Notes under the pieces: model-generated
Told to the model about the DNA's origin: nothing
The model's input: the letters and a program-made list of their open reading frames with translations, nothing else
The model's database searches: none
Position numbers and translations under genes: made by a program
Source of the DNA: Sipunculus nudus
Lineage: Eukaryota > Annelida > Sipuncula > Golfingiida > Sipunculidae
DNA: 64,000 nt
Direction: 5' to 3'
Assembly (NCBI GenBank): GCA_026874595.1
Contig: CM049322.1
Location: 45,627,340-45,691,339 of the forward strand
Shown: in pieces, positions 1,237 through 64,000 of the stretch
Numbering within the stretch: position 1 is the stretch's first letter
How the letters are laid out: the number at the start of each line of letters is the position of its first letter

Positions 1237-1452
1237 TGACTGTTGCTGCGTTTGGAAACTTGAATTCGTTGGAGAGATAGCAAAGGTACTTCAGAGCAGT
1301 TTTCGTCCATGCTTCAGTAGAAGGAGAAACAATAGGAGCACGACTCCACAGTGTAACCCGAGGGTTCTCACATACATCCTTAGGCTGGCCGTTACAAAAC
1401 CAAACAATAATATAGTTGGTGAGGTCTGTGTCGAAAATGATATTAAGCGTCA
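1237..1452 (-). CDS. Gene A exon 9: second-signature strand and C-terminal helix of domain 2
   Basis: 216 nt, phase 1 to 1, acceptor tttcag|TG, donor GTCA|GTGAGT. Encodes IFDTDLTNYIIVWFCNG, then LWSRAP and a helix-like region with ALKYLCYLSNEF. Same length as exon 9B. Confidence 0.86.
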
Positions 1453-2969: not shown

Positions 2970-3673
2970 CATGTATAAACACTTGCATATATTCGCTTTA
3001 CCAAGCATGCTAAGGAAACTGTTTATTTTGTATCCGTCAGGGTTCAGTCTTGTTGCTGAGAAGAGTTCTGTATTTTGTAAATTGCATTATATTTTGTTTA
3101 TGATAGCAAAGCATACTTAGCTGACTCCTCATACCATCGAGCCTTGTTTCATCTAGTCGCTTTGCGTCTGTTTCATGAATATTATCAGGGCAATTCAACG
3201 AATCAAATGACTCGTGTACACCTGATTGCGGTGTTACTCTCTCTTTGGGAAAATGGTTTTAGACGAAACGGTGGATCTAGGTGTTTTTTTTTGTGTTTAT
3301 ATAGAGCCACGTAAGAGTGTTCTATTTCTAGTGCATGCATTTTTCTTCAGATGGTGTAAGAACAGTGTATTGTTTTCATTTGGTTCGTTGAATATGATTG
3401 ACATTTGTTCAAACTTGATCATTGGTCATGAATTAGACGTCCGAGGGGCTCGATGCATCAAGGGCTCTGGCAGTGTAGCCGGCAGTGGCTTGATCGAATG
3501 AGAATATGGCAGGAGGATGCGTTCTTGAACATACAGACAAACTCACGCCACGTAATATGTGATGAATCTGGCGTCGTATACTCTCTTAATGTCAGCCGTC
3601 ATCCCCAGGAGATTTCTGTCCGGGCTTTGTCCGTCCGGGAGATACATAACTCTCAGATACCAACGACCAAATA

Positions 3674-3743
<70 letters not shown>

Positions 3744-17000: not shown

Positions 17001-17596
17001 TGCAGTTCTACATAATTGACAAATCCCCTTTACTGACATTATCTAATTCTTTTCACATCCAAATCATTTTACAAGCAACACCAAATTACATTACACAATG
17101 ACAAGTGTTTAAGACTTCAAACAAATACTCGACATTTAGGCTCAGCAAACAAAACTTCTGCATTCTGATGAGTACACCCCTCCGCCATTCACTTATTTGA
17201 CCCGTATCCACACGTGCATTCATAAATGTACAATTTCAAATATTCTATGATGACGTTCCTGGATCCGGATTATGTGCTGATTAAGTCGAATCGATTCATC
17301 GTTGGCTCATTTTCCGAAGATCCCTGAATATTTTAACTGATTCCGTTCATGACTGCGAGATTAATGTTATGAACAAATAAAAGACAAACATACAAACACA
17401 ACAAACACACGAACGGGGATGAATGCATACCCTCCTGGCTGAGGCAGTACTATTAAGGCAGTAGTATTAGTATTCTCAAAAGCCAATTGTAGACTTACCC
17501 TAGCAAAAGCAACGTCATCTCTGAATGGCTGGTCCTTATCAAACACTGCCCAGCGCTTTGAACAGCAGTTATCATGACAATTAGAACCCGTATCAT
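1237..17596 (-). CDS. Gene A: two-domain lipocalin, exons 1-9 (3' end outside window)
   Basis: Diverged paralogue of gene B on the same strand. Exons: 17499-17596, 11770-11885, 11146-11243, 10379-10600, 7027-7053, 5567-5622, 3547-3674, 2379-2470, 1237-1452. All splice phases equal those of gene B. Domain 1 has GRWY in exon 2, domain 2 has GRWY in exon 7 and FDTDLTNY in exon 9 (Tyr replaced by Leu in the TDY motif). Exon 1 carries a 1-base deletion after the signal peptide, so the frame from the natural start is broken; every other exon is open. No match to gene B exons 10-11 was found below 1237, so the end of the gene probably lies before base 1. The role is expected to equal that of gene B: a secreted or tethered carrier of small hydrophobic ligands. 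Confidence 0.8.
2379..2470 (-). CDS. Gene A exon 8: middle strands of domain 2
   Basis: 92 nt, phase 2 to 1, acceptor tttcag|C, donor AACG|GTATCA. Encodes QGQECQQLGPATLDISETTG and a polar end. The frame chosen is the one conserved with gene B, and it is open. Confidence 0.75.
3547..3674 (-). CDS. Gene A exon 7: GRWY strand of domain 2, acceptor inside (TA)n
   Basis: 128 nt, phase 0 to 2, donor GGC|GTGAGT. Encodes VFGRWYLRVMYLPDG and ends ITYYV. The acceptor AG is the edge of a 66-base (TA)n tract, so no pyrimidine tract precedes the exon; gene B has an ordinary acceptor here. Confidence 0.83.
3676..3741. repeat. (TA)n microsatellite forming the acceptor of gene A exon 7
   Basis: About 33 TA units directly against the exon on its 5' side in the minus-strand sense. 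Confidence 0.9.
5028..5515 (+). repeat. Interspersed ~500-bp repeat, plus orientation copy 1
   Basis: Blocks AGGCCAGAAAACATGGATAT, CTTGCAATGGCGGTTTTGCAAC and the CCAGAATTACCC end are shared with 39281-39800 and, reversed, with 47640-48030 and 60410-60780. Interrupted by (TA)n at 5408-5477. No protein recognised. Confidence 0.65.
5408..5477. repeat. (TA)n microsatellite
   Basis: About 35 units in intron 6 of gene A, inside the ~500-bp repeat copy. Confidence 0.9.
5567..5622 (-). CDS. Gene A exon 6: start of domain 2
   Basis: 56 nt, phase 1 to 0, acceptor ttacag|CG, donor GGG|GTAAGA. Encodes DACNMKFIPYFNTYDRMG, the N-terminal segment before the second GRWY. This copy is intact and shows that the gene B copy lacks one base. 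A (TA)n tract begins about 90 bases past the donor. Confidence 0.8.
6110..6957. mobile_element. Possible inverted-repeat element with AGGGGCGTAGC ends
   Basis: TTAGGGGCGTAGC at the left and GCTACGCCCCTGA at the right are reverse complements over about 12 bases. Poly-G and poly-C tracts lie inside near each end. No ORF or target-site duplication found. Located in intron 5 of gene A. Confidence 0.4.
7027..7053 (-). CDS. Gene A exon 5: 27-bp microexon
   Basis: 27 nt, phase 1 to 1, acceptor acgcag|AC, donor AACG|GTAAGT. Encodes CLEDQVPN, against CMEDKVPN in gene B. Confidence 0.77.
7748..7766. repeat. Long G homopolymer
   Basis: About 19 G. Similar G/C runs occur at 960-974, 2024-2040, 6170-6182, 6896-6945, 18832-18864 and 54061-54076. 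Such tracts are error-prone in assemblies. Confidence 0.85.
9833..10008. repeat. Interspersed repeat with GTCGTAATTT and CAGTAGAACCCCGC ends
   Basis: CACAATTACGACC ... GTCGTAATTTGAG ... GGGACCA ... GGTCGCAATTGC ... GGCGGGGTTCTACTG. The same ordered blocks occur at 48608-48890 and 61363-61540. The right end resembles pogo-type termini. Confidence 0.5.
10379..10600 (-). CDS. Gene A exon 4: second half of domain 1
   Basis: 222 nt, phase 1 to 1, acceptor tttgcag|TT, donor AATA|GTACGT. Encodes [19 protein letters not shown] and the helix-like stretch with LRESLCIPSV. Clearly conserved with 45773-45994; most differences are conservative, which argues for past selection on protein. Confidence 0.87.
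10983..11083. repeat. (TA)n microsatellite, interrupted
   Basis: About 100 bases with short TG and GAA interruptions, in intron 3 of gene A. Confidence 0.9.
11146..11243 (-). CDS. Gene A exon 3: middle strands of domain 1
   Basis: 98 nt, phase 2 to 1, acceptor cttcag|G, donor TTGA|GTGAGT. Encodes [16 protein letters not shown] followed by an acidic end. A large (TA)n block (10983-11083) lies 63 bases past its donor. Confidence 0.8.
11770..11885 (-). CDS. Gene A exon 2: GRWY strand of domain 1
   Basis: 116 nt, phase 0 to 2, acceptor ttttag|TGT, donor CT|GTAGGT. Encodes CIGRWYSVERM and ends LNVTDL. Same length and frame as exons 2B and 2C. Confidence 0.83.
12650..14200 (+). repeat. Diverged long repeat family, copy 1
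   Basis: Shares ordered blocks with 21.6-25k and 26.1-27.6k, for example TGACCTTGAACCTAAATTGAC, GAACGATTTTTATCAA, AAATGGCCATAATT, and GACCTAAGGAATATCA. No coding frame common to copies. Lies in intron 1 of gene A. Probably a non-autonomous or fully decayed element. Confidence 0.6.
14756..14910 (+). repeat. 21-bp minisatellite, unit AATAAGTCGTGCGCACGAAAT-like
   Basis: Seven imperfect 21-bp units. Because the period is a multiple of 3, one frame reads a 7-residue repeat (AHEIISR, ANEITSR and similar), which I take to be a by-product. The core TCGTGCGCACGA is a 12-bp palindrome. Confidence 0.7.
17499..17596 (-). pseudogene. Gene A exon 1: signal peptide exon with 1-base deletion
   Basis: 98 nt: two codons shorter than gene B in the signal peptide and one base short after QCLI (GATAAGG against GATTAAGG). 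Starts MIRVLIVMITAVQSAGQC. After the lesion the frame that joins exon 2 reads KDQPFRDDVAFAR, ending AGG|GTAAGT. That downstream frame is open far upstream, but without a signal peptide. So either this is a real lesion or a T was lost in assembly. Confidence 0.72.
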
Positions 17597-30236: not shown

Positions 30237-30439
30237 CACTCTAGCAAAATAAGCCATCTAAGCCACTAAAAGTGCCTAGTGTAATATCAGAGGTGAGTAA
30301 AACGGAATTTGTTCAAGCTCAAGCTAAGGACAAAACAACTTCTCCTCTCTTCGAGAGAGTCCATGACAATGATGGTAAGCACAAGTTTACACTAAAAAGG
30401 GGTACCTTAGTTAGATTGATTATGTCAGGACAAAAATTT

Positions 30440-38804: not shown

Positions 38805-38872
38805 TTAAAATGCCCAGTATGTGACGACAGCTACTGCTGTAATTACATAGGTTCTCACAAAAGCGGATATAC
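38805..38872 (-). CDS. Gene B exon 11 candidate: terminal exon, hydrophobic GPI-signal-like tail
   Basis: Acceptor cttccag|GT. In the required phase it encodes [22 protein letters not shown] and stops at TAA. The tail is about 15 hydrophobic residues reaching the stop with no basic cytoplasmic end, typical of GPI signals; a type I membrane anchor is the alternative. An AATAAA (38801-38806) overlaps the stop, so the true cleavage signal may be further downstream. With it the CDS is 1145 nt as seen, 1146 with the exon 6 base. Confidence 0.58.
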
Positions 38873-41266
38873 CTGGAAGAAAAAATATATATATATTGCC
38901 AGTTACTCAGTAATTTTGATTTGCAAGTTATGCTGAGGCTAGTGTGCATGAACGAAATGTGATTAAATATTAATGAAAATATTGCTATGGAACAATGTAC
39001 GAAACATCATTAATCACTTAATTGGTCTTTATCGCAAGGATAAGAGTATCAAGCAGATCACACAAAAAATGAAATGAATCTTTCAGTATCACTGTAATTA
39101 TAATGTTTCAAACAAATTATCTACACGTATATATCTAGAAAATAAAATTATCTTCTCTATATAAAAATAGGCCAAAAAAGATCAATAACTCACCACTCGG
39201 TGATCCAGATCCTGAAGTAAATGAAAAATAGGCATTATTTACTTCATCAATAAATATTGATATTAAATAAATTTTTATATTAGATATGCCCAATCTCGTA
39301 TCTGACCTTCATAAACTTAATGTAATCCCTTTGGGCGGTTATAAAGAAAGGCCAGAAAACGTGGATATCACTGCACCCAGGCCACTTGTTTGTTTATATC
39401 AACGTGTTGATAAGATTTGGGTGCCCGTCAAAACAAATTCAACAAGGGCATTTGGAAGCAAGTCATATAAGCAAGAGCCTTGCAAATGGCGTTTTGCAAC
39501 AATTGATCCTTCTGCCTCCGCATATATGCATCCTACTATCTTAGCTTATATGGTTTTACCGTATGTCAACATTGCTATGTTGACAAACATGTTGATGATA
39601 AACCAGTTTATACACCCTTCACAGAGGCCTTACAAGAACTTTAATCACCGGAATTACCCTTAGAAACAAGTTTATACAAACTCCACGAAGGCCTTAAAAG
39701 AACTGTTTATTACCAGAACGCTTACACTTTAAATAATACACAGAGGAAGTCAGAAAATCAAATTAATTCTTTTTCAAAAGGTGAATGGGTACCTTTAATA
39801 TAAATAACATAGATTTTAAACAATGCTTTGTCAAATTGTGAAATTTGTGGACATTGGGTGGCATTCGTTAGATGCCTCATGTGTTCGTCGTTAAATATGA
39901 ACCCATTTTTGAATATATAAATACGTTAAATCAGACGTAGATAAGAGCTTATATAGTGATGGATATCGAGGCGATATTATTGTGGTATAGAAAAAATATA
40001 TTTCACAAATATATTTTAAGGATTACCTTCTGGCTGTAATCTAGGGCAGTCTGAAAGTATAAAATGACAAATCCCGGTATCATCAATTATAATCAATAAT
40101 TAAGGTGACATCCTTTAATACAAATTAAAGAAAAATGGTTTCTCATATACTGGGAAAAAAATCCATTTTATTTTGCCATCTAAGGTGTAGGTGTTGTATG
40201 TAGTAAATAGAAAGACACAGTTGCATTATATTCACTGTGGATCTGGCACATGATACGGAGTAAGGAACGCCATCAATTAATATGTACCATTGAACGATCA
40301 CTTATGTATTAATAAACTTGGGGATATTCGCCGAATAAGTGAATGCGAACTCATGGCGGAGGCTTAAGTCGTTAGAAAACAGATTTCTAGTTTGAAGAAG
40401 TATGAATCACTTTTACACTGCAGGCTTTTTTGGGGTACCTTAATTGCTACATGAATAAAACTGACTTATCCAATTTTTATGGCGCTTAAATCTAGAAGTC
40501 ACTCAATAATTACTCGTCCGAGAATAAGACTTGTACTCACTAACTGTCGCTGCGTTTGGAAACTGGAATTCATTGGAGAGATGGCAAAGGAATTTCAGAG
40601 CAGTTTTCGCCCACGCTTTAGTAGTAGGAGAAACCACAGGAACACGACTCCAGAGTCCAACCTGAGGATTCTCACATACGTCTTTTTGCGGTCCATTACA
40701 ATACCAAACAATGAGGTAGTTGGTGTAATCAGTGTCAAAAATGTTCGCATGTGTAACTGAAACATCAGATTATGAAAATGCTGAATCTCACAGTAGTGCC
40801 ATCTAGAGAGTGAAGAGAGAACTACTTTATTCGTAACCCTGAGACTGTCACTGAAAAATGAGACCAAGGCTCTGATTGGTCAGATAGACTGGTTTATTTT
40901 GTTGGTCAAAGTTTACATTTTGTCAATTGCCTGCACCAGGCTGGGCAAGTTTCTTTCCTTTCTCTTACACCCGTATAAGTTATATTAGTTAAATACTTTG
41001 CTGTGGAAAATAGTTTAAAAAATCATTTGTTTTAACAACATGAAAGAAAGTTTACGATGCGATACCGTTATCATTGTATCTGTCCCGTATCAATTTTCCC
41101 TTAATCTCTTGCATTTCCAGTGTGGCTGGACCAAGCTGACGGCACTCCTGTCCTTGACTGAAGGATAGAGGAATACGTTAGCTTTACATAAACACATAAA
41201 TTTAAACTCTTCAATGGCAAACACACAAATACACATACCCCCCACACACATATATATATGTATATG

Positions 41267-41326
<60 letters not shown>

Positions 41327-41551
41327 TACAATCCTATTACTGGCAGTTTACCTTACTGTGATGTCACTTCACTGGTTCATAAAAATGATAATACACAGAG
41401 AGCTGAGGATCTGCGTTAGCTCAGTGTTAGAGCAAACGACCGGCAATCAGAAATTCATGGGTTCGATTTCCTCTCTCGCTCTATAGCCCTTTCTGTCTGT
41501 CTGTCTGTCTGTCTCTCTCTATTTGTCTCTCTCTCTTTCTCTTTCTCTGTA

Positions 41552-41623
<72 letters not shown>

Positions 41624-42554
41624 CAGATATATTCTCCTGCAACTGCTAGAGTGTTCTCACGTAGGACATGGTATATAAGCATATATGTGTACAAGAGTAT
41701 ATAAGCATATATGTGCGTCACTGAAACAACAGATCATGAAAATGCTGAATCTCACAGTCCCGCCATCTAGAGAGTGAGGAGAGAACTACAATATTCGTAA
41801 CCCTGAGACTGTCACTTTTACAATTTGTCACAATTTGATAGCAACTCCCGGGGTTTTAACTATATATTCATATTTAAATGAAAAACATGTGCAATTATGT
41901 TGTAAAGAGGCTATCAATACGTTAAGTTTACAATCAAATACAGTTTATGTTTCTATCATAACCCGAGATAGTATTTTCTTTGGCCCCTATCAGGAAGCAG
42001 CTATATCCTTTTTGATAAAAAGCATTAATGGTTTTAAATTTAATGTATAACATTTGTAAATTATACTGTAACGCTTATTGATCAACGTGCTCCAAGAATA
42101 GGAACAACTTACGCGACATAATATGTGATATGGGCGTTGACGTCTGCTCTCTCTATGTCAGCGGTCATCCCTAAGAGATCTCTGTCCGGGCTGCGACCTT
42201 CTGGGAGATACAGAACTCTCAGATACCAACGACCCATAACCTGATAAAGATAAATACTTAAAATCCTCGTTATTACGAACACCTTTAGAATCAGTGCCGA
42301 TAAATTAAGTATAGCTTTAGCCCTAACACTCGTTCGAATAAAATATGGAAAGATACATGATTAATACTGAAAATTACTGTCTTTGACTTCACAATAAAAC
42401 TGCTATTTACTGGAAGGTTTCCCACACTATTTATTGCTATAATAATAATAATAAATATTATTATTCAAAATTTGTCATTTATTCCACTGGGTTCTGTGAA
42501 CAATTACACATATAAAATAATTGGAAATGTATATAGTTATGAACATACATTTAC

Positions 42555-42604
<50 letters not shown>

Positions 42605-45276
42605 ATGGTGATAAAATATCGAATATTTTGAAGCATATAAAATTAAAACATAAGACATTTTAGTAACTGCGAAGTTTGTGAGTAGGGAAGAAAGAACAGT
42701 ATGATTCCATGTTACTGTGTGTAGTATAAAGGTTTTTAGTAAAAACATAAAAAAAATAAAATCTGATAATTTACAAAATTCTTAACGCTTCGAGTCTTTT
42801 CTACAATAACAGAACTGCTTCGTAGTCATACTGTTGGAGCATCATTTTCTAAAACCCCCTGTCCGCCTTTAATGTTTAGCTTTAGAAAATACGATCACAC
42901 GAAATCCGTTGGGCAATTTACCATCCATGTAAAACACCTCTGTCCTTGTTATAATTATCCTAACTGGTATATAGCCCGTCCAATGGCGGGTGCCTCTTTA
43001 TAAAGATTTGCCTCAAAGAACGAAAACAAATTACACTCGGCATCCCAGTGTAGTTTTTTTGTTGGATGAGGGCACGGTCATGCGTAAAGTATAGGTATAA
43101 TTGACCCAATCTCTCAGGTGATATATTTCTTCCTTGATTTAGTCAAAGGAGTACGTTCGTCTCTTATTTCGGTGGCATTGTTAAACCCTGACCTCGTAAA
43201 TAATTAAAAACCTCACACGGAGACTACCAATTTGCGCATTGACTGCACCGTGAATGAATTTTTGGTATACTGATTCATAGTTAATTTATGTGTACATAAC
43301 AGTCAACACGCATCTACAGTTGACACTCAAATTAATAAAAGAAATTGACGGATTAGATAACTTACCTTCATTATGTCATAGGTATTGAAATACGGATGAA
43401 TTTGGCGTTGCAAGCATCCGCTTTACAAAGAGAAATAAAACGAAATAATAAATAAGACAAAATATATAATTTAACAAAATAAGAACTGAACAATTAATTA
43501 AGCAAATAATAGAATACATATTAAATATTGTAGTCCTTGTTTTGTCACATACGTCTCAGAATTGCATGTGTAACGGAATGTAGAGTTTTTAGTTAAGTTC
43601 CGTTCGAAACCTTAAGATTAATCTGTTTACTGTATATTCTCATTTCTTACAGAAAAAAAGATAAAAAATGTCCATAAATGTTCCGCGTTTCTTATACCCG
43701 GCACTAGGTCGTGTATGTTTGTGACTAAAGCATTTAATCATTGTCATTTTGCTCTTATAAGATAATGTGTTTTTCTTTTAATTACATCACATTCCAGTTT
43801 TGCTCATGTATTAACCAGAAACCGCATCACAAAGTATAAAAAATTTATATTTGATGGTGAACAACACTCCTTCCTAGTATAAATTATACTGCGAAGGTTT
43901 TGGTTTAATAATATGCCTATTGTCAACAGGCTGTATATTTTGCCGTTTGTGAGGTTTGTTGGCGTGGTACATATCAGCTGATAAATGAAATGTCAAGTGT
44001 GCCCTCTAGGCAATATTTACTTTCCAAAATTAAACATTGGATGGCTCGACAACTATTTACGTATGTTTATTTTGTAAGAGAGTAAGCCTCTTGAAATGTA
44101 CATTACACAGAAGATCATAACTAAAAGAAAAAAAAATGATTTTTGTATCGCGATTCTGTGATGATTTTTAATAAATACACCTAATTTGCATCAAAGAACC
44201 TTAACTTTATATGTGACCTCACATTGCTTATACTCCCATCTGTTAAAGCCCGATATTAACCAGGTTTTCTCAAATTCTTGACTTGAGTTAATGACTATCC
44301 TAGCTATATCGTGCAAGGCCAAAACCTTTCTGGGAACGCCAATGTCAATAGATAATAAAGGCTGTTTCAAAATATTGAAATTTTGAAATGAAATAGATGA
44401 AATAGCTATTCGATTTAACATTGTAGATGCTACACCAATCTTAGCGTAAAGAGAACAAGGCGTCGCCCAACGTTGCTTGGAGCCGCCTTTGTCCCTAAAT
44501 GAGAATCCGTATAAACAAGCAGATCAGCAGCACCATTGTTCATCTTTTGACCAACGCCTGAATATCCCGGACACCAGCATACAATCAGTTAATCCCCGTC
44601 TAGAATCCTTACAACGAATGACATGGATGCGAATCATAATTTTCAGAATCAACCACGTGCAAGATCGGTCATACAACGATACATGGTAAATTCTGATCTA
44701 GTATCCGTAGTCGTCGAGAGTATATGACTGATATGTACATTTATGACTGGCATTTCGATTGCTGTAACAGAGCTTAAACCATAACCCAATTCAACTCTGA
44801 TTAAGGCAAGGCGATAATTTGGTAAAATATTGCATTTTAGTATTGGAAGAAAGGAACTAGGGAAAGTGGTAAACTTACCGTTTGGTACCTTGTCCTCCAT
44901 ACAACCTGAGAGATTAAAACAGTAAGGGTTATATATGACGAAATATAATTTGATATCCCAGTGGATAGCTTAAAGTATTTCTTTTAAGTGAACCTAAAAG
45001 GAACTGACATAATATATGATAATCCAGAAATCAAGTATCAGTGATCAGTGAATGTAAATTTACGTAAATTTACCTAACCTCATTATAATTAGAGTTTTTA
45101 GATATAAGTTTAAGCATAAAGGTTATATCATAATAGTAATTAACTCTTATTATTTTATGATAAAATTGGATGTAATTAACAGAGGAGGACAATAAAGGAA
45201 TGATGGAAATAATGATGTTCGGAAATGCACACTAGACGACAGATATTCGGAGACAGAGAAGCACTTGAATGCAGCT

Positions 45277-45330
<54 letters not shown>

Positions 45331-46812
45331 GGGGAGGGGAGGAGTAGGATACTAAATAACAGTTCAGACACACATCCAATATCAACTAACCTGTTGTGAC
45401 AGTTTCGTCCGATTTCCTCAGACTGTGATGACTCATTACCGCTGGCCACTAGGTAGCGCTTTAGGTGCGCGTAGCGAGTCGTAGAAATGCGGCAGGTCTA
45501 TTTTAACCGCTGACGTTAACAACGAAACTGTCACAATATGTGAGCTGATAAAGTATGTGTATTTAACTTAAACTAGCATTCAAATAATTCAGTTGAAGGC
45601 ATCTATATGGAGAGAGGGAGAGAGAAAGACAGAAAGAGAGAGAGCGGAGATAAACATGCGTAGGTAAATATACAGGTATTACACAATTTACAATAATTTA
45701 TCTTGGATATGCCAGAAGTGGACATGGAGGACTGTATACAATATATATGTTGACAGACAGAGAGACACGTACTATCGTAGGACGCTGACTGGTAGACGTA
45801 GTTGACGGACGGCAAACACAGCGTATCTCTGAGTGACGTAGCTGTGGCCAGCTCCGTGTCTTCCATGATCATTATACGACTGACAATATCAACCTGAGGC
45901 CGCGAGCAAACCCTGTCTTTCATGTACGCCGACTGGCAAAAGTAGGCCACCCAGAAAGTGCTGAAACTGCCACCAGGAGAATACATAGTGCCAACTGTAA
46001 ATATACCAATATTCATGTCAATTGAACATTTACCAAGATGTTTGTAATTAGCGGGGGTTACAGGAACCGCAACCCCTCCATCCCCATCCCGCAAACACCT
46101 GCAAATGAGCGATAATTGAAAGTGTGCTACGAATTTAGCTTAATCAAAATAAATTTCAGGTACAATACCTGTCACCTATGGTTATTGTTCTGCGATAAGA
46201 GCAGTCTTATAATATCAACCATGTTTCAGATTTAGCCAGAGCATTGAGAGAAAGAAATAAAAGAGGGGAAAAGAATGATAGAAATTCCTCACACACAAAA
46301 TGATCCAAGTACTAATATAAAAAAATACTCTACTCCTGTAAACCTCCACTCCAGGCGTAGGAGGCTTAGAATGATTTCTTTAAAAATGCTTCAGATTATG
46401 TTCAGGGTGCATGTTTTGTTGGTATTAGAGGATTAGCCTTACATTTCATGTTTAACACTCTAATGCCCTACATTGCCTTAATTATATCACATCTGAAGCT
46501 GTCCTCATGAACAAGATAGGTGGGAAGTGGGTTCACAAAAAAAGTTTTTCAGGAAACGCTACTCCTTTTATGTTTCAGAGAAAATATAACGAGCGATCAT
46601 CACATAGTTATTTTGAATTGTGACGCGATTGTTTTTTCATATCAAATATACACTTAGGGAATAGTACTGTGTATAATTTCTTTTTTCAAAATGCAGCAAT
46701 AGGTACATATATATTCTCACTGTCATTTGACAAACCGACAGCCTTCCTATCTAGAAAAAAAAAGATTTACAAGTGGTGTGTAATTATCGAGTCAGGAAAC
46801 ACATACACACAG

Positions 46813-46846
<34 letters not shown>

Positions 46847-49800
46847 TCATGGGTTGATTCATATGCATTCCGCTTTGCCAGACTGTGCATTGACAGTAAA
46901 TGTCACGTGACCTGATGCCTAGTGTATTAAACGAGGATTGGTATCTGAGAAGATTTGACAAGCGGTGATCAAGATTGTGTTTACGTCACTAACCTAATGA
47001 TGAATCGCCATACAGGGACGCCTCTCTGGGTTCATCTGGGTTTAGAGAAATCCGCCTCGTTCTGGTCTTCCTACATTTTCCGTTGAACTCACTGAATATG
47101 AAAAAATTACGACCATTTTTCACAATCCCAATCCTTTTCTGCTCTTCATATCATACCTTGCTTAAACAACCACCTCCAAAATGCTACAATTTTTATCAAG
47201 GTCCCGTTAGTGGTTATAATTTCGAGGTTCACTGTAATACAGTACATCTTTATTGAATTTTATTTGCATTTCAAAGAGATGGAAACGTACAACGTATGAC
47301 TGCTGACCCCAACCAAATCAAGAAGAAAATCAGAAGAAAATCAATATAATTAATATGTTAGTATACGATGATATAAATAGGAGGTTATGATATTTCCTAA
47401 ATTTGCACAAGCCACTGAACACGACCGAGTTGACTTATCCCATTCAGCCTCTCGCCTGGAGAGCCGGGTGTCCCTTCCGGAAGAAATTCTGATACCGTTA
47501 GAGGAAGAGGCATAACTGATATGAGACCTTGGTATATCATTCCAGGAAAAATGTCACAGGAAATATTATAAATATCAATCCCCTTCCTCCTTTAATTCAC
47601 ATGTGACGCCATACAAGACTGTTAAAACCCAAAAGTGGACATTCAAAGGTGCCCATTCACCTACCTTCTGAAAAAGAATTATGTAATTTCTGGCTCCTCT
47701 TTGTGTAAATTGATACTCTTAGGGTAATTTTAGTTATGAAAACCTCTTATAACTTCTTCGTGAAGGATGTATGAACTTCTTTATCAACAACATGATTGTA
47801 ATCACAGCAATGTTGACAAACAGGAAAAACATGTAACATGTCATTTGTTGTAAAAAGCCAGTTGAAAAGCTCTGGCTTATTTGATTTGGCGCCAGATGCC
47901 CTTGTTGCATTTGTTTTTGCTTATGTTGTCGGGCCCTACACATTATAAACACATTGATATAAACACCACAAGTAGCCTGTGTGCGGTGATATGCACGTTT
48001 CCTGGTCTTTTTTATTAAATATTCATGGAATTAATTTAGTTTATAAAAGTCAGATATAAGATAAAGTACAGTATGCAGTGTCAGCTATTTTGATCCATCA
48101 GGATTGTCGTGCCTAACTGGAGTTTTTTGGCAAACGTGTCAAATTTGGGGTGCTAATTCCAAAAATACCAGGTGCTTTTTTTTAAGACAAGTCTTCAAGC
48201 GACATTTTGAATTTCAAAATGGCTGCCCCTTTAATATAGTTTGCCGTATATCTGGACTTCTGAGCACCGTAGAAGGATACAAATGGTAGAAACATCCATG
48301 TTTGCGATACAAGGAATTCCGTTAGAACCATTCCCATGATTTCTAAATAATTGACTAGATCACCATACTGAATTTCAAAATGACCGCCTTTTTTTATTAA
48401 ACTTTTGCTTATATCAGTTCTTTTGAGCACCGTAGAAGAATACAAGTGGTAGCAACATTGTTTCTGATGCCAACATGTAAATCCAAGCAATTGCCAATTT
48501 TTTTTACAAGTATGGCTTGGTCATCGCCATGTTGAATGTTAAAATGGCCACCATTTTTATCCGCATTTTTTTTTATATTGGAATAAGGTATATACAATGG
48601 ATCCCCACAATTACGACAACATTTAGGACAAACCAAAGTGGTTGTAATTTGAGTGTGGTTGTATTCATAAAGTTCTCAGATACCTGGATCATATATTCGG
48701 GACCAGAAAAGATGGACTTAATTGGCAATCTTTAGGACAAACCAAAGTGGTTGTAATTTGAGGGTGGTTGTATTTATAGAATTCTTAGATACCCGGATCA
48801 TATATTCGGGACCAGAAAACATTGACGTCACTGTGTTAGAGGTCGCAGTTGTGCGGTTGCTGATAGGTAGGGTCCACCTGGACAAGATTTTTAAACAGGT
48901 AGGTTTCATAAAACCCTATCTGTGCTTGTTTTTTTTTATTTGAGTTTGGCATCAGATAGCAACTGTCTGTTGTGCAGGTAGTTCAAGACTCCAATCCATT
49001 GTCAATAAGATGAATAAATTTCCGGTCCTAACTCCTTGTACCAACTGCAAGTTATTGATAATATCATTAAGATGCGGTATGTTTGGTCCTGAATCCTAAT
49101 ACCGTTTGCCAGTTAGCCATTTTGGACATAAACTCCGAATGTGTGGTTTTGATGCACCAAGGCTTTATCAGTTGAATCTGATTAACTTGAAGGTTCATTT
49201 TTGGACTTTTGATTTGCCTGAATACGACATTGTTGACAGCTGACATAAGAAGAATACCATTAGAGGAGAAGGGATATCTTAAGAAACAGAAAACTTGTTA
49301 CTACAAAATGTCTCAAGTCCTGAGCTTAACTTTCTCCATTCGATCCCAAATGGATATCTCTGCTTTGGATACAAGTAATCCTTCTCCCCTATCACTAACT
49401 GGTTGCTGAAGTGAACTGTCCTCCTCTACCGACCTGTCATCTATATACTTTGCGACAACGTGAAGTGAACCAAAAAAAACAATCAAACATATAGCTCACA
49501 AACTCTTACTAGGTTGCCTTTCCATGTTGATGACTGCAGCTAGAATGTCCTATCCTAAAAGTCAGGACCAAGGGTCATTACTGTTATGTTAAAAGGACCA
49601 GGAATTTGGCAAGACACAAAGATGTATAGCCAGTGCTCGTTTGGTTGAAGGTCTCCCTAACAAAGTGGCAATAACTTCACTTTGAATCCATCGCTGTTGT
49701 GACTGCATTATTTCGAATTATGAGTTGGCAAGACACAAAGATGTATAGCCAGTGCTCGTTTGGTTGAAGGTCTCCCTAACAATGTGGCAATAACTTCACT

Positions 49801-52800
49801 TTGAATCCATTGCTGTTGTGACTGCATTATTTCGAATTATGAGTTGCTCTAGCGACAATCCACCAATACCTCAATTATACATTATCAGCAATGTGGCCTG
49901 CTGAAACATCTTTGGAGCATCCTTGCAGCATGCAATTTTGAAAACAATTATCCTGAAGTGCCATGCACTCCGCAGTAAACGAAAAACGAGGTATTCTTAC
50001 TTGGCAGTTGTCTTAAAAGCAGAGCACAATTCCTTGTTACACTTGATCAAGACCTTAAGATTTTAGGCTTAACACAATGTCTCCTCTAAGGAAATGTTTT
50101 CTTAATCGTTGACATTCATTTTCATACAGTTTATTTATTTATAAGTAAGGTGAGGAAATTAGGAAATTTTAAAAATACCTTTACATTGCATTAAATCACA
50201 AGTCAAAGTGATTTGGGATATAGGTCATTTGTAAAATAAGCATTTCGGTTGAATTCACCTTGCAAATGCTAGTCATGCAGTAAACTAGATCCTCTTCACC
50301 ATGAATATGCATGGATTTTAGCATTGATTATAGATATGTATGTTTCTCTAAAGGACTCCCATTGAGAGATACCAGCACAGACCAAAATATATAATCTGAA
50401 ACATGACCAAATTTTTTTAATTTTTAATCAATACAATCCATGATATCACAGGCATATGTAATTACCCTATATTAATTGCTCTAGGTTGCTCACAAAAGTT
50501 TATTTTGAAATCCAATATGTTTTAGATAATAATTTGAAACAAATTTGACCATGGTTTTAATGGATTCGCTGGTATCACAATCATGGATGTTGCTTCCAAT
50601 TTAAAATCTTATCACATGCACATATAAGCAAATTCGGATAGAAAATTGCGGCCGTTTTGAAATTAAATAGGGCGGCCAAACTATACTTCTATATATTACA
50701 AGACATGTTTTGATTTATATGTTAGTATTACAAACACGGATGTTGTAACTACGGCGATTACCGAAAATAAATATAAGCAAAAGTCTGTTAAAAAATGACG
50801 GCAATGTTGAATATCAATATGGCGGCCTAATCAAATTATCGGAACCATGGATGTTCCTACCATTTGTATTCTTCTACGGTGCTCACAAGAAAATATATGA
50901 TCAAAAGTGTGTTAAAAAATTGCGTCCATTTTGAAATTCAACATGGCGGCCTAATAGAATTAGTAGCAAGTATGGCAATGGTTTTAATGGAATCCCTGAT
51001 ATCGAAAACGTGGGTGTCGCTGCCAGTTATACTGCTCCACATTGCTCAGATCTCCAGATTAAAAACAAAATATAAGAAAAATGGCCGCCTATTTGAAATT
51101 CGATAGGCGGCTGAAGACTTGACTGATAAAAATGGCATCTGATTTTTTTTTTTAATCAGCACCCCAAAAAAGACAAAGTTAGTCAATTAAAATTCATTTT
51201 TTGGCACGAAATCCAGTTGGAATGCACAACAGACTGTACTAACAGTTGATTTGGCCCCTTTAAGAAGCCGGGGCACAGTGCAGTTGCGTGACAAAAGTTT
51301 GCAGACCCCACTGCCAAGTATAATATGGATGTACTCACAGGTCAGTCACGTTAAGAAACAACACTCCTTTATCGTCATACATGTCGTAAACTGTCCCATG
51401 CCATTCACCAGGGACCACCGTAAGTCTCTCTACAGCATACCATCGTCCAATGCACTAAAGTAGAAAAAACAATATATACTTTCCCATCATAATCACACAA
51501 AAGACACCTGTTATAAGAGATTGATATAAATGTTCGGGTCAGTTATTGACCGAACAAGATGTTTTTTGTTATAAACCAGAAGGTAAAAATAAGTAAAACA
51601 AAACTTCTAATCACCAAAGCCTTCTTGTCTGAATGCCTGCCCAGTATTTCGGTCATCGAGATTTCCAAATCATTGGGATATTTCAGCCATGTAGCAGAAT
51701 GGACTTAAGACCTGCTATTTAATCTATCTTGGGATAGAGAGTTAAGTGCAAATAGAAAGTGTATCGTTGAAGTTTATACCGGATCTACGGTTTTTTCTAG
51801 ACCATGCCTTTTTCCTAAAAATTATATTATTGTATTTTAAATAAAGACATGATCTGCAACAATGTTCTTATTAAATATTATTTAAAACATGTCCTTTATT
51901 CTTTAAGTCATAATAAACATAATATTTATTTTAAAAAATCCTTTATTGAAATTGTTTTATTAATTAATATTTCATCTCATATAATTTACCAAAATTGATC
52001 ATAAATATGGTTTCAGTAAAACAGCGATATAAAATTTATTTATATGGATATAAAAAAGTATTTATAATTACTTATGCTTAGCGCTCCTTGGCTCTGAGGT
52101 TAGCGTTGGCATGTCTGAAGTGGTGGAGTATATTAATTGTATATTGAAAATACAATATATTAATAATGAAAATCATAGACTTTGATTCCATTCCTGAGAT
52201 GATATATAAAATGTTTGTAAAAATTAGCCAAACTTTGAATACCCTCCTACGACTGCAAGTCACCCCCCTTCTTGAAGATATATTGACACCACTATTCAAA
52301 CACCAGTATAACACATGCTTGCATTAACTAGTTGTTTAAGAACCGTTTAAGCCTTGGGCGGGTGTTTTGCACAGGGACTTTTCGGACTATGACATGCTGG
52401 ACATGACACGATAGTTCGGCCAGGTAAATATTATTATCATGAATAATCAATTCAAAATATTATTATTAATTGAGCATGACAATGTAGATTTTTCGTATAA
52501 GCCTCATATGTATAGGATTTCAAAATGCGAATTTAATATAAAGATTATTTTTAGCAATGGCCATCATAATGTACTTTTAAAATAATACTTCTATTTTTTC
52601 TATTTCATTTGATTGCATTTTATGCTTAGGAATACTTCTTGAAAATAGTGGTATTTTCCCTTTTTTATGACAAATTTTAGCTGAATGATACCGTGTTGTT
52701 TTAGAATTCAACAGTTTCTTGAAATGAGTCAGATACTGACTAATGATAATCATGAGTTTGAACATATTAAATAATGAACCAGTTTAAAACTCCAGACATT

Positions 52801-53174
52801 TTTCCATTGCACAATCTATATAGGATAACATGTAAATGTTGAAAAAAAAAACAATTAAAACAAATAAATAATAAAAACATATTGTAAAGATATCTATGTT
52901 TGAAGGGTCAATAGTGAATTAGAGGCGATATCTGGGTATATTGATCTGACCGAAGTATCCACTCATAAAAAAAAAGCCTGCCGGTAACGTCCTACATTTG
53001 TGTGTAATATATCATTAAGGTAGTGTAAAAATATGATTAAACTTTGCGTCATAGCAGTTTCAGACTTACCCTGGCAAAAGCAATGTCATCTTTGAACGGT
53101 TGGTCCTTAATCAAACACTGCCCAGCGCTGCGAACGGTAGTTACCACGGCAAGTATAAACAGCGCACGTATCAT
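38805..53174 (-). CDS. Gene B: two-domain lipocalin with signal peptide and GPI-like tail (11 exons)
   Basis: Spliced minus-strand gene, exons (high to low): 53070-53174, 51339-51454, 46994-47091, 45773-45994, 44879-44905, 43366-43420, 42113-42240, 41066-41157, 40541-40756, 39194-39211, 38805-38872. Every junction has GT/AG and matching phase. The sum is 1145 nt, one short of 382 codons because exon 6 lacks one base relative to gene A. Residues 1-19 are a signal peptide. Domain 1 starts near C20 with the lipocalin GxW motif GRWY at 38-41. Domain 2 starts near residue 190 with GRWY at 211-214 and the second lipocalin signature TDY at 290-292, followed by an Arg and a helix-like Cys-containing stretch. 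The last 28 residues are a small-residue site and a hydrophobic tail. Lipocalins bind small hydrophobic ligands; the ligand here is unknown. The insect lipocalin Lazarillo is a known GPI-linked relative. Family call is strong; the anchor and the last two exons are inferred. Confidence 0.8.
39194..39211 (-). CDS. Gene B exon 10 candidate: 18-bp microexon
   Basis: 18 nt between a good acceptor (acttcag|GA) and a strong donor (GTG|GTGAGT), phase 1 to 1, as needed after exon 9. Encodes R/SGSPS, a run of small residues suitable as a GPI attachment site. It holds the position that the 27-bp exon 5 holds after domain 1. No second copy in the window confirms it, so it rests on splice sites and phase alone. 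Confidence 0.55.
39281..39800 (+). repeat. Interspersed ~500-bp repeat, plus orientation copy 2
   Basis: Holds an open frame of 125 codons (39286-39663), which is not open in the other three copies, so I treat it as chance. Lies between gene B exon 9 (40541) and exon 10 (39211), just upstream of exon 10 in the direction of transcription. Confidence 0.65.
40541..40756 (-). CDS. Gene B exon 9: TDY strand and C-terminal helix of domain 2
   Basis: 216 nt, phase 1 to 1, acceptor tttcag|TT, donor GTTA|GTGAGT. Encodes [17 protein letters not shown], the second lipocalin signature, then WSRV (third signature Arg) and a helix-like region with [12 protein letters not shown]. Homologous to 1237-1452 in gene A. 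A partial copy of its acceptor region lies at 41.71-41.82k. Confidence 0.87.
41066..41157 (-). CDS. Gene B exon 8: middle strands of lipocalin domain 2
   Basis: 92 nt, phase 2 to 1, acceptor cttcag|T, donor AACG|GTATCG. Encodes [20 protein letters not shown] and a polar end. Counterpart of exon 3 (same phases, 98 nt there). Gene A has the equivalent at 2379-2470. The donor GTATCG is weaker than the others but occupies the same place as GTATCA in gene A. Confidence 0.75.
41249..41330. repeat. (TA)n microsatellite
   Basis: In intron 7 of gene B, upstream of the SINE; a second tract of 70 bases follows it at 41550-41619. Confidence 0.9.
41404..41550 (+). mobile_element. tRNA-derived SINE with (CTGT)n tail
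   Basis: Box A-like TTAGCTCAGTGTTAGAGC (41416-41433) and box B-like GGGTTCGATTTCC (41459-41471) with tRNA-like spacing, followed by an unrelated body and a CTGT/CTCT simple-sequence tail. No cloverleaf acceptor pairing was seen, so not a functional tRNA. Lies in intron 7 of gene B, against its direction. Confidence 0.62.
42113..42240 (-). CDS. Gene B exon 7: GRWY strand of lipocalin domain 2
   Basis: 128 nt, phase 0 to 2, acceptor atcag|GTT, donor CGC|GTAAGT. Encodes [15 protein letters not shown] and continues to ITYYV. This is the domain-2 counterpart of exon 2, with the same phases and the GxW motif at the same place. Confidence 0.85.
42558..42599. repeat. (TA)n microsatellite
   Basis: About 21 units in intron 6 of gene B. 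Other (TA)n tracts: 2934-2968, 18533-18580, 46820-46846, 59518-59547. Confidence 0.9.
43366..43420 (-). pseudogene. Gene B exon 6: start of lipocalin domain 2, with 1-base deletion
   Basis: Acceptor gtaaag|CG and donor AAG|GTAAGT are intact, but the exon is 55 nt where gene A has 56. After DACNAKFI one C is missing relative to gene A (ATCCG against ATCCCG), which brings a TAA before the donor. With the base present the frame would run into exon 7 in phase 0. The lesion is real in this sequence; whether it is real in the animal is open, because it lies in a short C run. Confidence 0.75.
44879..44905 (-). CDS. Gene B exon 5: 27-bp microexon, interdomain linker
   Basis: 27 nt, phase 1 to 1, acceptor ctcag|GT, donor AACG|GTAAGT. 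Encodes CMEDKVPN; the Cys probably pairs within domain 1. Supported by exact conservation of length and phase at 7027-7053 (CLEDQVPN) and 57715-57741. Confidence 0.78.
45279..45330. repeat. (AG)n microsatellite
   Basis: In intron 4 of gene B; shorter in the distal copy near 58.10-58.13k. Confidence 0.9.
45394..45536. mobile_element. 143-bp element with TTGTGACAGTTTCGT terminal inverted repeats
   Basis: Starts TTGTGACAGTTTCGT and ends ACGAAACTGTCACAA, 15-bp perfect inverted repeats around 113 bases. The equivalent block at 58195-58327 is part of the segmental duplication and therefore not independent evidence of mobility. Confidence 0.5.
45773..45994 (-). CDS. Gene B exon 4: second half of lipocalin domain 1
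   Basis: 222 nt, phase 1 to 1, acceptor tttacag|TT, donor ATA|GTACGT. Encodes [19 protein letters not shown], then a Cys-containing loop and a helix-like stretch with [10 protein letters not shown]. It occupies the same place as exon 9 of domain 2 but has GGSFSTF where domain 2 has the canonical FDTDYTNY, so the TDY signature is missing here. Strongest coding signal of the gene; the same exon appears at 10379-10600 and 58565-58786. Confidence 0.88.
46994..47091 (-). CDS. Gene B exon 3: middle strands of lipocalin domain 1
   Basis: 98 nt, phase 2 to 1, acceptor tattcag|T, donor TTAG|GTTAGT. Encodes [16 protein letters not shown] and an acidic tail. Very basic centre, one Cys. The open frame, length and splice sites match gene A exon 3. 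Exon 2 lies 4.2 kb upstream; the intron between them holds the fold-back-like element. Confidence 0.82.
47640..48030 (-). repeat. Interspersed ~500-bp repeat, minus orientation
   Basis: Reverse copy of the repeat at 39281-39800, in intron 2 of gene B next to the fold-back left arm. Duplicated again at 60410-60780 by the segmental duplication. Confidence 0.65.
48105..51225. mobile_element. Fold-back-like element with long inverted repeats made of tandem units (copy 1)
   Basis: Left arm 48.11-48.56k and right arm 50.57-51.22k are reverse complements of each other in order: AACTGG end, a GGGGTGCT block beside a poly-T run, then repeated units containing GAATTTCAAAATGG and TTCTACGGTGCTC. Units recur at about 161-164 bp in the left arm (48209, 48370, 48534) and 124-161 bp in the right. 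Long arms with internal tandem repeats are typical of fold-back/Galileo-type DNA elements. Sits in intron 2 of gene B. No target-site duplication found. Confidence 0.6.
49265..49470 (-). pseudogene. Unidentified ORF fragment inside the fold-back-like element
   Basis: On the minus strand the frame [18 protein letters not shown]...[18 protein letters not shown] ends at a TGA and reads through with only a few residue changes in the distal copy (61.98-62.14k). About 60-80 bases upstream (near 49.52k and 62.18k) a stretch ending MERQPSKS abuts a GTGAGC donor-like site in the distal copy. I do not recognise the family; it may be a piece of the element's own protein or a captured host exon. Confidence 0.35.
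51339..51454 (-). CDS. Gene B exon 2: GRWY strand of lipocalin domain 1
   Basis: 116 nt, phase 0 to 2, acceptor ctttag|TGC, donor CT|GTGAGT. Encodes [11 protein letters not shown] at its start, the lipocalin GxW motif in the first beta strand, followed by a stretch ending LNVTDL. An N-linked glycosylation sequon NVT is visible. Near-identical to the exon at 63840-63955 and clearly homologous to 11770-11885. Confidence 0.85.
53070..53174 (-). CDS. Gene B exon 1: signal peptide and start of lipocalin domain 1
   Basis: 105 nt, 35 codons. Starts [11 protein letters not shown], a short basic n-region and hydrophobic core, with likely cleavage near RSAG|Q, then QCLIKDQPF and a charged DD. Ends in phase 0 at AGG|GTAAGT. 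The frame is open upstream with other Met codons, but only this Met gives a clean signal peptide and it matches the start in gene A. Confidence 0.78.
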
Positions 53175-56100: not shown

Positions 56101-56454
56101 TGTAACTGTGACCTGCTGGAAATTTGGAATAATAATAAGTTAAGTCGGATCCCTACTAACGGGCATACAAAATTCCGTTACGGTCCCCGCATTGTACATT
56201 TTGGCCGATCATCATGCATGTCCGTTTTGCTTCCTTTGTTATCGGGATATATTATTTGTCAACTTTAGGTTGAGGGAAATACCTCAGAAAATATTGATCT
56301 GCGGATTAGGTGCTGCTACATGTAGTGGATCATTATTTTGTTCACAAAGTCTGTTAAACTCTAATTTGTTTCATTTTGTACCCTGTCTGTGATCTAAGAA
56401 AAGGTGACTTGGTGCACCCACCTGTGGATGAGACGCTTGCAGACACATTGATAA
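53175..56454. other. Between gene B exon 1 and the duplication edge; no gene supported
   Basis: Should hold the gene B promoter near 53.2k. Includes a C run at 54061-54076 and several short open frames without conserved partners. A plausible small minus-strand exon at 55.60-55.73k is not supported by any copy. Confidence 0.45.
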
Positions 56455-57714: not shown

Positions 57715-57741
57715 CGTTTGGTACCTTGTCCTCCATACAAC
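57715..57741 (-). CDS. Gene C exon 5: 27-bp microexon
   Basis: Same 27 nt as exon 5B, encoding CMEDKVPN, with intact acceptor and GTAAGT donor in phase 1. It is the last exon of this copy; exon 6B at 43366-43420 would be the next phase-compatible homologous exon. Confidence 0.75.
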
Positions 57742-60700
57742 CTGAGTGATTAAAACAGTAAGACTTATATATGACGAAATATAATTTGATACCCCAGTGG
57801 ATAGCTTAAAGTTTTTCTTGTGAGCATAAAAGAAACTGACATGGTATATGATAATCCAGAAATCAAGTATCGGTGATCAGTAAATGTAAATTTACGTAAA
57901 TTTGCCTAACCTCATTATAATTAAAGTTTTTAAATATAATTTTAAGCATTAGAATTATACCCTAATTGTAATAAACCCTTATTAATATGACAAAAGGGGA
58001 TAAAGAGGACAATAAAGGAATGATGGAAATAATAATGTACGGTGAAGCACACTTGACGACAGATAATCGGAGACAGAGAAGCACTTCAATGCAAGTGCAG
58101 AGAGAGAGAGACGGAGAGAGACAGAGAGAGAGGAGTAGGATACTAAATAACAGTTCAGACACACATCCACTATCAACTAACCTGTTGTGACAGTTTCGTC
58201 CGATTTCCTCAGACTGTGATGACTCATTACCGCTGGCCACTAGGTACCGCCATAGGTGCGAGTAGCGATTAATATAGATGCAGCAAGTCTATTTTACCCG
58301 CTGACGTTATCAGCGAAACTGTCACAATATGTGAGTTGATAGAGTATGTGTATCGAACTTTTAAATAGTATTCAAATAATTCAGTTGAGGGCATCTATTT
58401 GGAGAGAAGGAGAGAGAAAGACAGAGAGAGAGAGAGCGGAGATGAACATGAGGAGGTGAATATACATGCATCACCCAATTTACAATAATTTATCTTGGAT
58501 ATGCCACAAGTGGACATGGAGGACTGTATACAATATATATGTTGAAAAACAGAAAGACACGTACTATCGTAGGACGCTGACTGGTAGACGTACTTGACGG
58601 AGGGCAAACACAGTGTATCTCTGACTGACGTAGCTGTGGCCAGCACCGTGTCTTCCATGGTCATTGCACGACTGACAATATCAACCTGAGGCCGCGAGCA
58701 AACCCCGTCCTTCATGTACGCCGACGGGCAAAAGTAGGCCACCCAGAAAGTGCTAAAACTGCCACCAGGAGAATACATAGTGCCAACTGTAAATATTAAT
58801 GTCAATTGAACATTTTCCAAGATGTTTGTAAACAGCGGGGTTACAGGAACCGCAACCCCTCCATCCCCATCCCGCAAATACCTGCAAATGAGCGATAATT
58901 GAAAGTGTGCTACGAATTTAGCTTATGGTCAAAATAAATTTCAGGTGCAATACCTGTCAGCTATGGTTATTGCTCTGCGATAAGAGAAATTTTGAAAAGA
59001 ATGATAGAAATTCCTCCCACACAAAATGATCTAAGTATAGTTATAAAATGATACTTTACTTCTGTTAACCTCCACTCCAGACGTTGGAGGTTTAGAATGA
59101 TTTCTTTAAAAATGCTTCAGATTTTGTTCAGGGTGCATGTTTTGTTGGTATTAGAGGATTAACCTTACATTTCATGTTTAACACTCTTATGCACTACATT
59201 GCCTTAATTATATCACATCTGAAGCTTTCCTAATGAACGAGATTGGTGGGTTCACAAAAAAGTGTTTTCAGGAAACGCTACGCCTTTTATGTTTCAGAGA
59301 AATTATAACGAGCGATCATCACATACTTTTTTTTTTCATATCAAATATACACTTAGGGAATTGTAGTGTGTATAATTTCTTTCTTCAAAATGCAGCAATA
59401 GGTACATATATATTCTCACTGTCATTTGACAAACCGACAGCCTTCCTATCTAGAAAAAAAGATTTACAAGTGGTGTGATATTATCGAGTCAGGAAACACA
59501 TACACACAGACTTAAACATATACATATATATATATATATATATATACATGTATATGTTCACGGGTTGATTCATATGCATTCCGCTTTGCCAGACTGTGCT
59601 TTGACAGTAAATGTCACGTGACCTGATGCCTAGTATATTAAACGATGATTGGAATCTGAGAGGATTTGACAAGCGGTGATCAAGATTGTGTTTACGTCAC
59701 TAACCTAATGATGAATCGCCATACAGGGACGCCTCTCTGGGGTTCATCTGGGTTTAGAGAAATCCGTCTCGTTCTGGTCTTCCTACATCTTCCGTTGAAC
59801 TCACTGAATATGAAAAACGCACACATACAATAAATACTTGCATAACAACAACCTTTATTCAGAGAATTTCTCAAAATGACGACCATTTTTCACAATCCCA
59901 ATCCTTTTCTGCTCTTTATATTACACCTTGCTTAAGCAACCACCTCCAAAATGCTACAATTTTATCAAGGTCCCGTTAGTGGTTATAATTTCGAGGTTCA
60001 CTGTAATACAGTACATCTTTATTGAATTTTATTTGCATTTCAAAGAGATGGAAACGTACAACGTATGACTGGTGACCCCAACCAAATCAAAACAGAACAA
60101 AATCAATATTTGAATATTTGTTTAGTATACAATGATAAAAATTGGAGGTTTTGATATTTCCTTAATTTACACAAGCCACTGAACACGACCGAGTCGACTT
60201 ACCCCATTCAGCCTCTCGCCTGGAGAGCCGGGTGTCCCTTCCGGATGAAATGCTGATACCGTTAGAGGAAGGGACATAACTGGTATGTGACCTTAGTATA
60301 TCATTCCATGAAAAATGTCACAGGAAAAATTATAAATATCAATCCCCTTCCCCCTTTAAATCACATGTGACGCCATACAAGACTGTTAAAACCCAAAAGT
60401 GGACATTCAAAGGTGCTCATTCACCTACCTTTTGAAAAAAGAATTATGTAATTTCTGGCTTCCTTTTTGTGTATATTGATACTTTAAGGGTAATTTTAGT
60501 TATGAAAACGTCTTATAACTCCTTCGTGAAGGATGTATGAACTTCTTTATCAACAACATGATTGTAAACACAGCAATGCTGACAAACGGGAAAAACATGT
60601 AACCTAAGGTCATTTGTTGTAAAAAGCCATTTGAAAAGCTCTGGCTTATCTGACTTGGCGCCAGGTGCCCTTGTTGCATTTGTTTTTGCTTGTCGGGCCC

Positions 60701-63700: not shown

Positions 63701-63955
63701 TTTGGCACGAAATCCAGTTGGAATATATAACAGGCTGTACTAACAGTTGATTCGGCCCCTTTAAGAAGCCGGGGCACAGTGCAGTTGGGTGACAAAAGTT
63801 TGCAGACCCCACCGTCAAGTATAATATGGATGTACTCACAGGTCAGTTACGTTAAGAAACAACACTCCTTTATCGTCATACATGTCGTAAACTGTCCCAT
63901 GCCATTCAACAGGGACCACCGTAAGTCTCTCTACAGTATACCATCGTCCAATGCA
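57715..63955 (-). CDS. Gene C: partial lipocalin copy, exons 2-5 only
   Basis: Exons 63840-63955, 59705-59803, 58565-58786, 57715-57741, near-identical to gene B exons 2-5 and inside a tandem duplication of about 12.8 kb. Exon 1 is expected near 65.6k, past the window. No exons 6-11 follow before gene B exon 1; homology to gene B stops at 56.45k, which equals 43.66k, just above exon 6B. So the copy codes only for domain 1 unless it splices onward into gene B exon 6, which its phase-1 donor would allow. Exon 3 has one extra base. Confidence 0.75.
58565..58786 (-). CDS. Gene C exon 4: second half of domain 1
   Basis: 222 nt, phase 1 to 1, acceptor tttacag|TT, donor GATA|GTACGT. Encodes [19 protein letters not shown]. 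Intact frame, with a few residue changes from exon 4B (for example CP for CQ after YF, and DG for DR). Confidence 0.85.
59705..59803 (-). pseudogene. Gene C exon 3 with 1-base insertion
   Basis: 99 nt against 98 in genes A and B. A run of four G (plus strand) replaces three in the second half of the exon, shifting the frame after SLNPDEP. Splice sites are intact (donor TTAG|GTTAGT). Alone this makes copy C non-coding past the point, unless the extra G is an assembly error. Confidence 0.75.
60410..60780 (-). repeat. Interspersed ~500-bp repeat, minus orientation (distal duplication)
   Basis: Duplicate of 47640-48030, with the same flanks. Confidence 0.65.
60868..63741. mobile_element. Fold-back-like element, copy in distal duplication
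   Basis: Left arm 60.87-61.31k. The right arm has lost its internal units (sequence jumps from the CCAATTTAAAATCTTATC block to GATATCGAAAACGTGG near 63.13k). The right end, 62880-63310, is then repeated at 63312-63741. It came with the segmental duplication and not by a new insertion. Confidence 0.58.
63840..63955 (-). CDS. Gene C exon 2: GRWY strand of domain 1
   Basis: 116 nt, acceptor ctttag|TGC, donor CT|GTGAGT. Encodes CIGRWYTVERL; differs from exon 2B by few substitutions (A to T after GRWY, G to V before EWHG). Confidence 0.83.
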
Positions 63956-64000
63956 CTAAAGTAGAAAAAAAACTATATATACTATCTCATCATAATCACA

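Follow-up and report, generated by a model that had tools for sequence, protein, structure and literature searches.

The question raised by this locus is whether the lipocalin-like exons on its minus strand belong to one gene encoding two barrels in a single secreted protein, as a sequence-only reading had proposed for the interval from 53174 down to 38805. The window analysed here is the whole 64,000-nucleotide stretch of Sipunculus nudus DNA. Within it we recognise a ten-exon gene on the minus strand (copy B), which runs from 53174 to 40016 and contains two lipocalin modules, homologous to each other and each about 175 residues long. Comparison of the window with itself revealed two further copies, one diverged (copy A, 17596 to 1237) and the other close but partial (copy C, 63955 to 57715); the final models number ten exons in copy B, nine in copy A and four in copy C (Table 1). 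It is proposed that a secreted protein built from two lipocalin modules in tandem is probably encoded here, by a gene that lies in a small cluster of tandem paralogues. A two-barrel lipocalin from one gene, in which the barrels would be joined, seems the best reading, since the modules are homologous, show the same series of intron phases, underwent a joint duplication and are under similar constraint, and since no first exon common to A and B was found between them. To that extent the original proposal stands, but the copy it cited is frame-broken as assembled and its last exon probably lies elsewhere.

Copy B starts at ATG 53174 with a signal-peptide-like N-terminus, in agreement with the signal peptide described before; judged by eye, such a hydrophobic N-terminus is present in exon 1 of both A and B. 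The two GRWY motifs reported for the gene are found on the minus strand in exon 2 (51448-51437) and exon 7 (42234-42223), and the single TDY motif lies in exon 9 (40733-40725, minus strand). The matching of splice phases was likewise borne out: the phases are compatible, and over copies A, B and C the models have GT at 22 of 22 donors and AG at 21 of 21 acceptors. Two C-terminal Cys-rich segments had also been proposed; the short Cys-bearing exon 5 does close module 1, but the end of module 2 is moved here to a proposed exon at 40050-40016. The candidate terminal exon at 38805, which had been taken as the 3' end, reads 22 letters without the C-terminal Cys and was rejected. The acceptors at 38805 and 40050 are equal in pyrimidines (15/20 each), and the exon at 40050 is preferred because it alone supplies a Cys and an ApoD-like ending, fitting the pattern of exon 5 (SCMED/NCLED) and the terminal NCP of ApoD, whose own ending reads NCPESM or NCPAEM. 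The last exon of copy B is thus probably the one at 40050-40016, and the precursor would have about 364 residues instead of the 380 or so first estimated, with modules of about 173 and 175 residues.

Table 1. Exon models of the three gene copies in the window; empty cells mark values that are not given.
Feature	Positions	Strand	Length (nt)	Ends in phase	Content
Copy B exon 1	53070..53174	-	105	0	Signal peptide and N-terminal Cys of module 1
Copy B exon 2	51339..51454	-	116	2	GRWY motif, module 1
Copy B exon 3	46994..47091	-	98	1	
Copy B exon 4	45773..45994	-	222	1	YFC, conserved R, presumed helix region
Copy B exon 5	44879..44905	-	27		Bridging; (S)CMEDKVPN; C-terminal Cys of module 1
Copy B exon 6	43366..43420	-	55		N-terminal part of module 2, Cys included; frame break when compared with copy A
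Copy B exon 7	42113..42240	-	128	2	GRWY motif, module 2
Copy B exon 8	41066..41157	-	92	1	
Copy B exon 9	40541..40756	-	216	1	TDY motif, WYC, conserved R, presumed helix region
Copy B exon 10	40016..40050	-			Proposed terminal exon; 11-letter reading, then stop
Copy A exon 1	17499..17596	-	98		Signal peptide; frame broken
Copy A exon 2	11770..11885	-	116		
Copy A exon 3	11146..11243	-	98		
Copy A exon 4	10379..10600	-	222		
Copy A exon 5	7027..7053	-	27		NCLEDQVPN
Copy A exon 6	5567..5622	-	56		Frame intact; reads ADACNMKFIPYFNTYDRMG
Copy A exon 7	3547..3674	-	128		
Copy A exon 8	2379..2470	-	92		
Copy A exon 9	1237..1452	-	216		
Copy C exon 2	63840..63955	-			Exon 1 presumably past window end
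Copy C exon 3	59705..59803	-			Frame broken
Copy C exon 4	58565..58786	-	222		
Copy C exon 5	57715..57741	-	27		

The diverged copy A offers the strongest evidence for the gene: it agrees with copy B in exon order and in phases. Of the nine exons compared between them, seven are equal in length (116, 98, 222, 27, 128, 92 and 216 nt); the two that differ are exon 1 (105 nt in B against 98 nt in A) and exon 6 (55 against 56 nt). When the gene spans of A and B were aligned by blastn, eight plus-strand blocks were obtained, seven of which are collinear and correspond to seven exons. The remaining block pairs 5026-5408 with 39288-39659 and is repetitive, with further matches elsewhere in the window; the same holds for two minus-strand blocks. 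Exons 5 and 8, whose shortness or divergence put them out of reach of blastn, were located by motif and by protein comparison. Nothing convincing was found within the window for exon 10 of copy A, which presumably lies beyond it. Copy C keeps module 1 alone within the window, and tblastn found no module-2 exons between its exon 5 and exon 1 of copy B. The exon set of the sequence-only reading is above chance, as its exons recur in the diverged copy at 1-17.6 kb with substitutions biased to third codon positions.

Several other features of the window were recorded. A tandem duplication of about 7.8 kb (43660-51497 with 56450-64000, 87-97% identical in pieces) bears the first barrel of copy C; the similarity of this segment to copy B ends within the exon 5-6 intron, and barrel 2 is absent after it. 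The intron that follows exon 2 of copy C contains a 433-bp direct tandem duplication (62879-63311 and 63311-63742, 99.8% identical), which may be very recent or an assembly artefact. A repeat array with a spacing of about 280 bp occupies 36741-37638, its blastn pairs being 76-79% alike. Retroelement fragments in separate frames, likely of the LTR type, lie on the plus strand at 30420-32452; 30420-30938 encodes an integrase zinc-binding domain (E=5e-21) with the integrase core below its cutoff, and 32060-32449 a reverse transcriptase (E=3e-17). Rfam at gathering scores gave no match, ARAGORN no gene, and NCBIfam no family for three pieces.

Coding constraint was assessed between A and B. Exons 2-9 of copy A join into a single open frame of 318 codons without a stop, but its exon 1 is broken; copy B, for which a single reading frame was claimed, is broken in exon 6 and runs into stop codons there. 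Over exons 2-5 and 7-9 (899 nt) the two copies differ by 184 substitutions, distributed 49/42/93 over codon positions 1/2/3 (p=4e-6), with no indel. Their dN/dS is 0.26 for module 1 (bootstrap 0.16-0.41) and 0.25 for module 2 (0.13-0.41); both modules have been under purifying selection between A and B. The corresponding dS values of 0.54 and 0.71 fit one joint duplication of both modules. For B and C, dN/dS is 0.57, a value from exons 2 and 4 only whose 15 differences are too few to judge.

Within the gene, each module has the intron phase series 0, 2, 1, 1, and a single phase-1 intron links exon 5 to exon 6. An alignment of the four module sequences (modules 1 and 2 of A and B) has 19 invariant columns, four of which are Cys; one more Cys near the start and one near the end of each module, where included, bring the shared Cys positions to six. 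Exons 1-5 of copy B match its own exon 9 within the window (27% identity, E=0.003), and when the module 1 and module 2 profiles were compared by hhalign, none of 150 column-shuffled controls was as good, in local and global modes alike. The common phase series and the six common Cys positions, together with the match between exons 1-5 and exon 9 and the profile comparison that beats all controls, indicate that the modules arose by internal duplication and that the two halves of the gene are its products. The spacer between the final Cys of barrel 1 and the opening Cys of barrel 2 is ten residues long.

The motifs of lipocalins read GxW, TDY and a late Arg. Module 2 of copy B has all three (GRWY, TDY and the late R), module 2 of copy A has TDL in place of TDY, and module 1 has GRWY and SR, with GSF where TDY is expected; PMC4532494 describes three short conserved motifs in lipocalins. 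Against Pfam PF00061, module 2 of copy B reached E=1.9e-4 and 22.1 bits, below the curated gathering score of 23, and the other three of the four constructs (B exons 1-5, A exons 6-9 and A exons 2-9) had no Pfam match. A profile of both modules gave seven PDB matches up to E=10, comprising six lipocalins and one helicase. The lipocalins are bilin-binding protein (four entries or forms, DigA16 being presumably a form of it), insecticyanin and lipocalin 2, and the best match is bilin-binding protein at E=0.0055. Cys 115 and Cys 170 of bilin-binding protein, as counted in the alignment, align with the YFC/WYC and C-terminal Cys of the modules; both form disulphides in that protein. A phmmer search of the PDB with copy A exons 2-9 found no chain up to E=10, and with module 2 of copy B it found five weak matches within the same limit, two lipocalins (best E=0.13) and three antibody or nanobody chains. 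Aligned globally by hhalign with five ApoD sequences, the joint module profile matched end to end (P=1e-4) and none of 150 controls was as good; the same was true of module 1 and module 2 separately in local mode. No clear result was obtained for module 1 global (103/150 controls as good), module 2 global (65/150) and the joint profile in local mode (1/150). Small HMMs compared with two ApoD sequences placed ApoD above 5000 shuffles for module 1 only, and were negative for module 2 and the joint profile. The motifs, the Cys residues and the NCP C-terminus of the modules are in register with ApoD. When viral contigs were scanned with the module alignment, 93 pattern matches and no relatives came up. 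A profile-level relationship to solved or sequenced lipocalins was thus found both in the PDB profile search and in the joint global alignment with ApoD; the signals are individually weak but concordant, and they suggest lipocalin membership on good, if not overwhelming, grounds.

Some of these results would also suit a Cys-rich secreted family outside the lipocalins, in which the GRWY and TDY matches are fortuitous: the Pfam cutoff was missed, the phmmer search with copy A was empty in the PDB, and several of the small-profile tests against ApoD were not clear. Such a family is highly improbable, given that all but one of the PDB profile matches are lipocalins (four of the six being forms of bilin-binding protein) and that the joint profile aligns with ApoD end to end better than all 150 controls, with motifs, Cys and NCP in register. 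A different concern is the state of the copies. Each has one frame break (A in exon 1, B in exon 6, C in exon 3), and therefore no intact gene is visible within the window as assembled; exon 1 of copy A has in addition an in-frame gap of six bases. Recent decay may be the source of these breaks, and the cluster could then consist of three recent pseudogenes, with no two-barrel protein made from the locus and a two-barrel ancestor still compatible. The lack of module 2 from copy C within the window would agree with this, but every break is a difference of one base at a short homopolymer, a frequent error pattern of long-read assemblies, the GT-AG boundaries are intact throughout, and A and B bear the mark of purifying selection without indels. 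We consider decay of the whole cluster quite unlikely, and assembly error is favoured as the origin of the breaks because A and B are constrained relative to each other. A two-barrel gene in decay would suit this reading as well as the preferred one of a single gene for two modules; the preferred reading and its rivals overlap, and their likelihoods need not add up to certainty.

The other arrangement to be weighed is that of two adjacent single-barrel lipocalin genes duplicated as a pair, with module 2 under a separate promoter and carrying a signal peptide of its own. Upstream of exon 6 in copy A (5623-5686, minus strand) the frame is open to an ATG at 5686 and is hydrophobic, reading MEILEFILLILSYCLRNITVTADAC and resembling a signal peptide. 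This stretch is not common to the copies, however: the same frame in copy B has no ATG, and the similarity of A and B fades upstream of the acceptor. An in-frame ATG with a hydrophobic stretch precedes two of the 21 exon starts tested (copy A exon 6 and copy C exon 3), so chance can produce one; since it is missing in copy B and occurs at this frequency, the stretch in copy A is read as chance. For a first exon common to A and B, blastn, tblastx and an ATG scan of the stretch from exon 5 to exon 6 were all negative, and the exon 5-6 introns of the two copies show no convincing likeness (best blastn E=0.07, best tblastx E=0.23). A module 1 ending on its own could obtain its closing Cys by reading through the donor of exon 4, which gives STC in A, B and C and in copy A is followed by an early stop (STCLFFNV, then stop). 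The early stop is limited to copy A, as B and C stay open for dozens of codons, and the 27-nt bridging exon 5 is kept with donor, acceptor and open frame in all three copies, which also speaks against separate genes. Paired single-barrel genes are thus unlikely. The STC read-through shared by the three copies and the early stop in A do mean that a single-barrel isoform may arise by intron retention after exon 4. A further variant starts from the position of copy C, whose exons 2-5, the visible part of a barrel-1 cassette that closes in phase 1, sit just upstream of copy B, with phases and strand that permit splicing to B exon 6; that it is so spliced, giving interchangeable first cups with a common second cup, is very unlikely.

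For the preferred reading, one gene for two tandem modules, the following route from exons to protein is proposed. Exon 1 would provide the signal peptide, exons 1-5 would form barrel 1 and exons 6-10 barrel 2, all from a single predicted transcript, and each module would fold into an eight-stranded barrel closed by disulphides. Further invariant Cys, at the VC and LC positions, may add an extra disulphide to each barrel. With only ten residues from Cys to Cys, the cups would lie close together, and the chain is expected to work as a covalent carrier with two cups, presumably extracellular, for small hydrophobic ligands. Since TDY is absent from module 1, the cups may differ from each other.

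Among known lipocalins, the modules most resemble the ApoD/bilin-binding protein type (PF00061), with which they have in common the GxWY start, TDYxNY (in module 2 of copy B), the late Arg, N- and C-terminal Cys, an NCP-like C-terminus and a putative signal peptide. ApoD is characterised in PMC8530192 as a monodomain protein with four conserved Cys; unlike it, the gene described here has two modules with six shared Cys positions each. Proteins with more than one lipocalin unit are uncommon, though already on record. The lepidopteran polycalins, for which the name 'multidomain lipocalin' appears in PMC4985599, have several lipocalin-like domains per polypeptide, with about 15 units in P. xylostella according to PMC10145054; compared by description alone, multiple units are common to both, two here against about 15 there. 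If a polycalin is a polypeptide with at least two lipocalin units, copy A has the exons of both modules in one frame of its genomic DNA. Likened again by description alone, two domains per protein are also shared with the 'double lipocalin-domains' of tick saliva mentioned in PMC9779611, where tick lipocalins are set against the histamine-binding protein HBP2, and two per chain with yeast Svf1, a suggested ceramide carrier whose ligand is modelled between its domains in PMC10583516. No molluscan or annelid two-barrel lipocalin was named in the title or the start of the abstract among the matches listed, from a literature scope that lay largely outside subscription journals. Because tandem lipocalins are known from polycalins, tick double lipocalins and Svf1, the novelty of the gene is below that implied when it was first proposed.

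For the same reason, that multi-barrel lipocalins are already known, the general picture of the family would be unchanged. If transcripts confirm the gene, it would represent a covalent lipocalin dimer of natural origin, in which the linker is very short and each barrel has extra conserved Cys, seemingly apart from the published insect, tick and yeast examples found. It would then offer a small test case for the evolution of multi-barrel carriers from single-barrel ones, as its intron phases still record the internal duplication.
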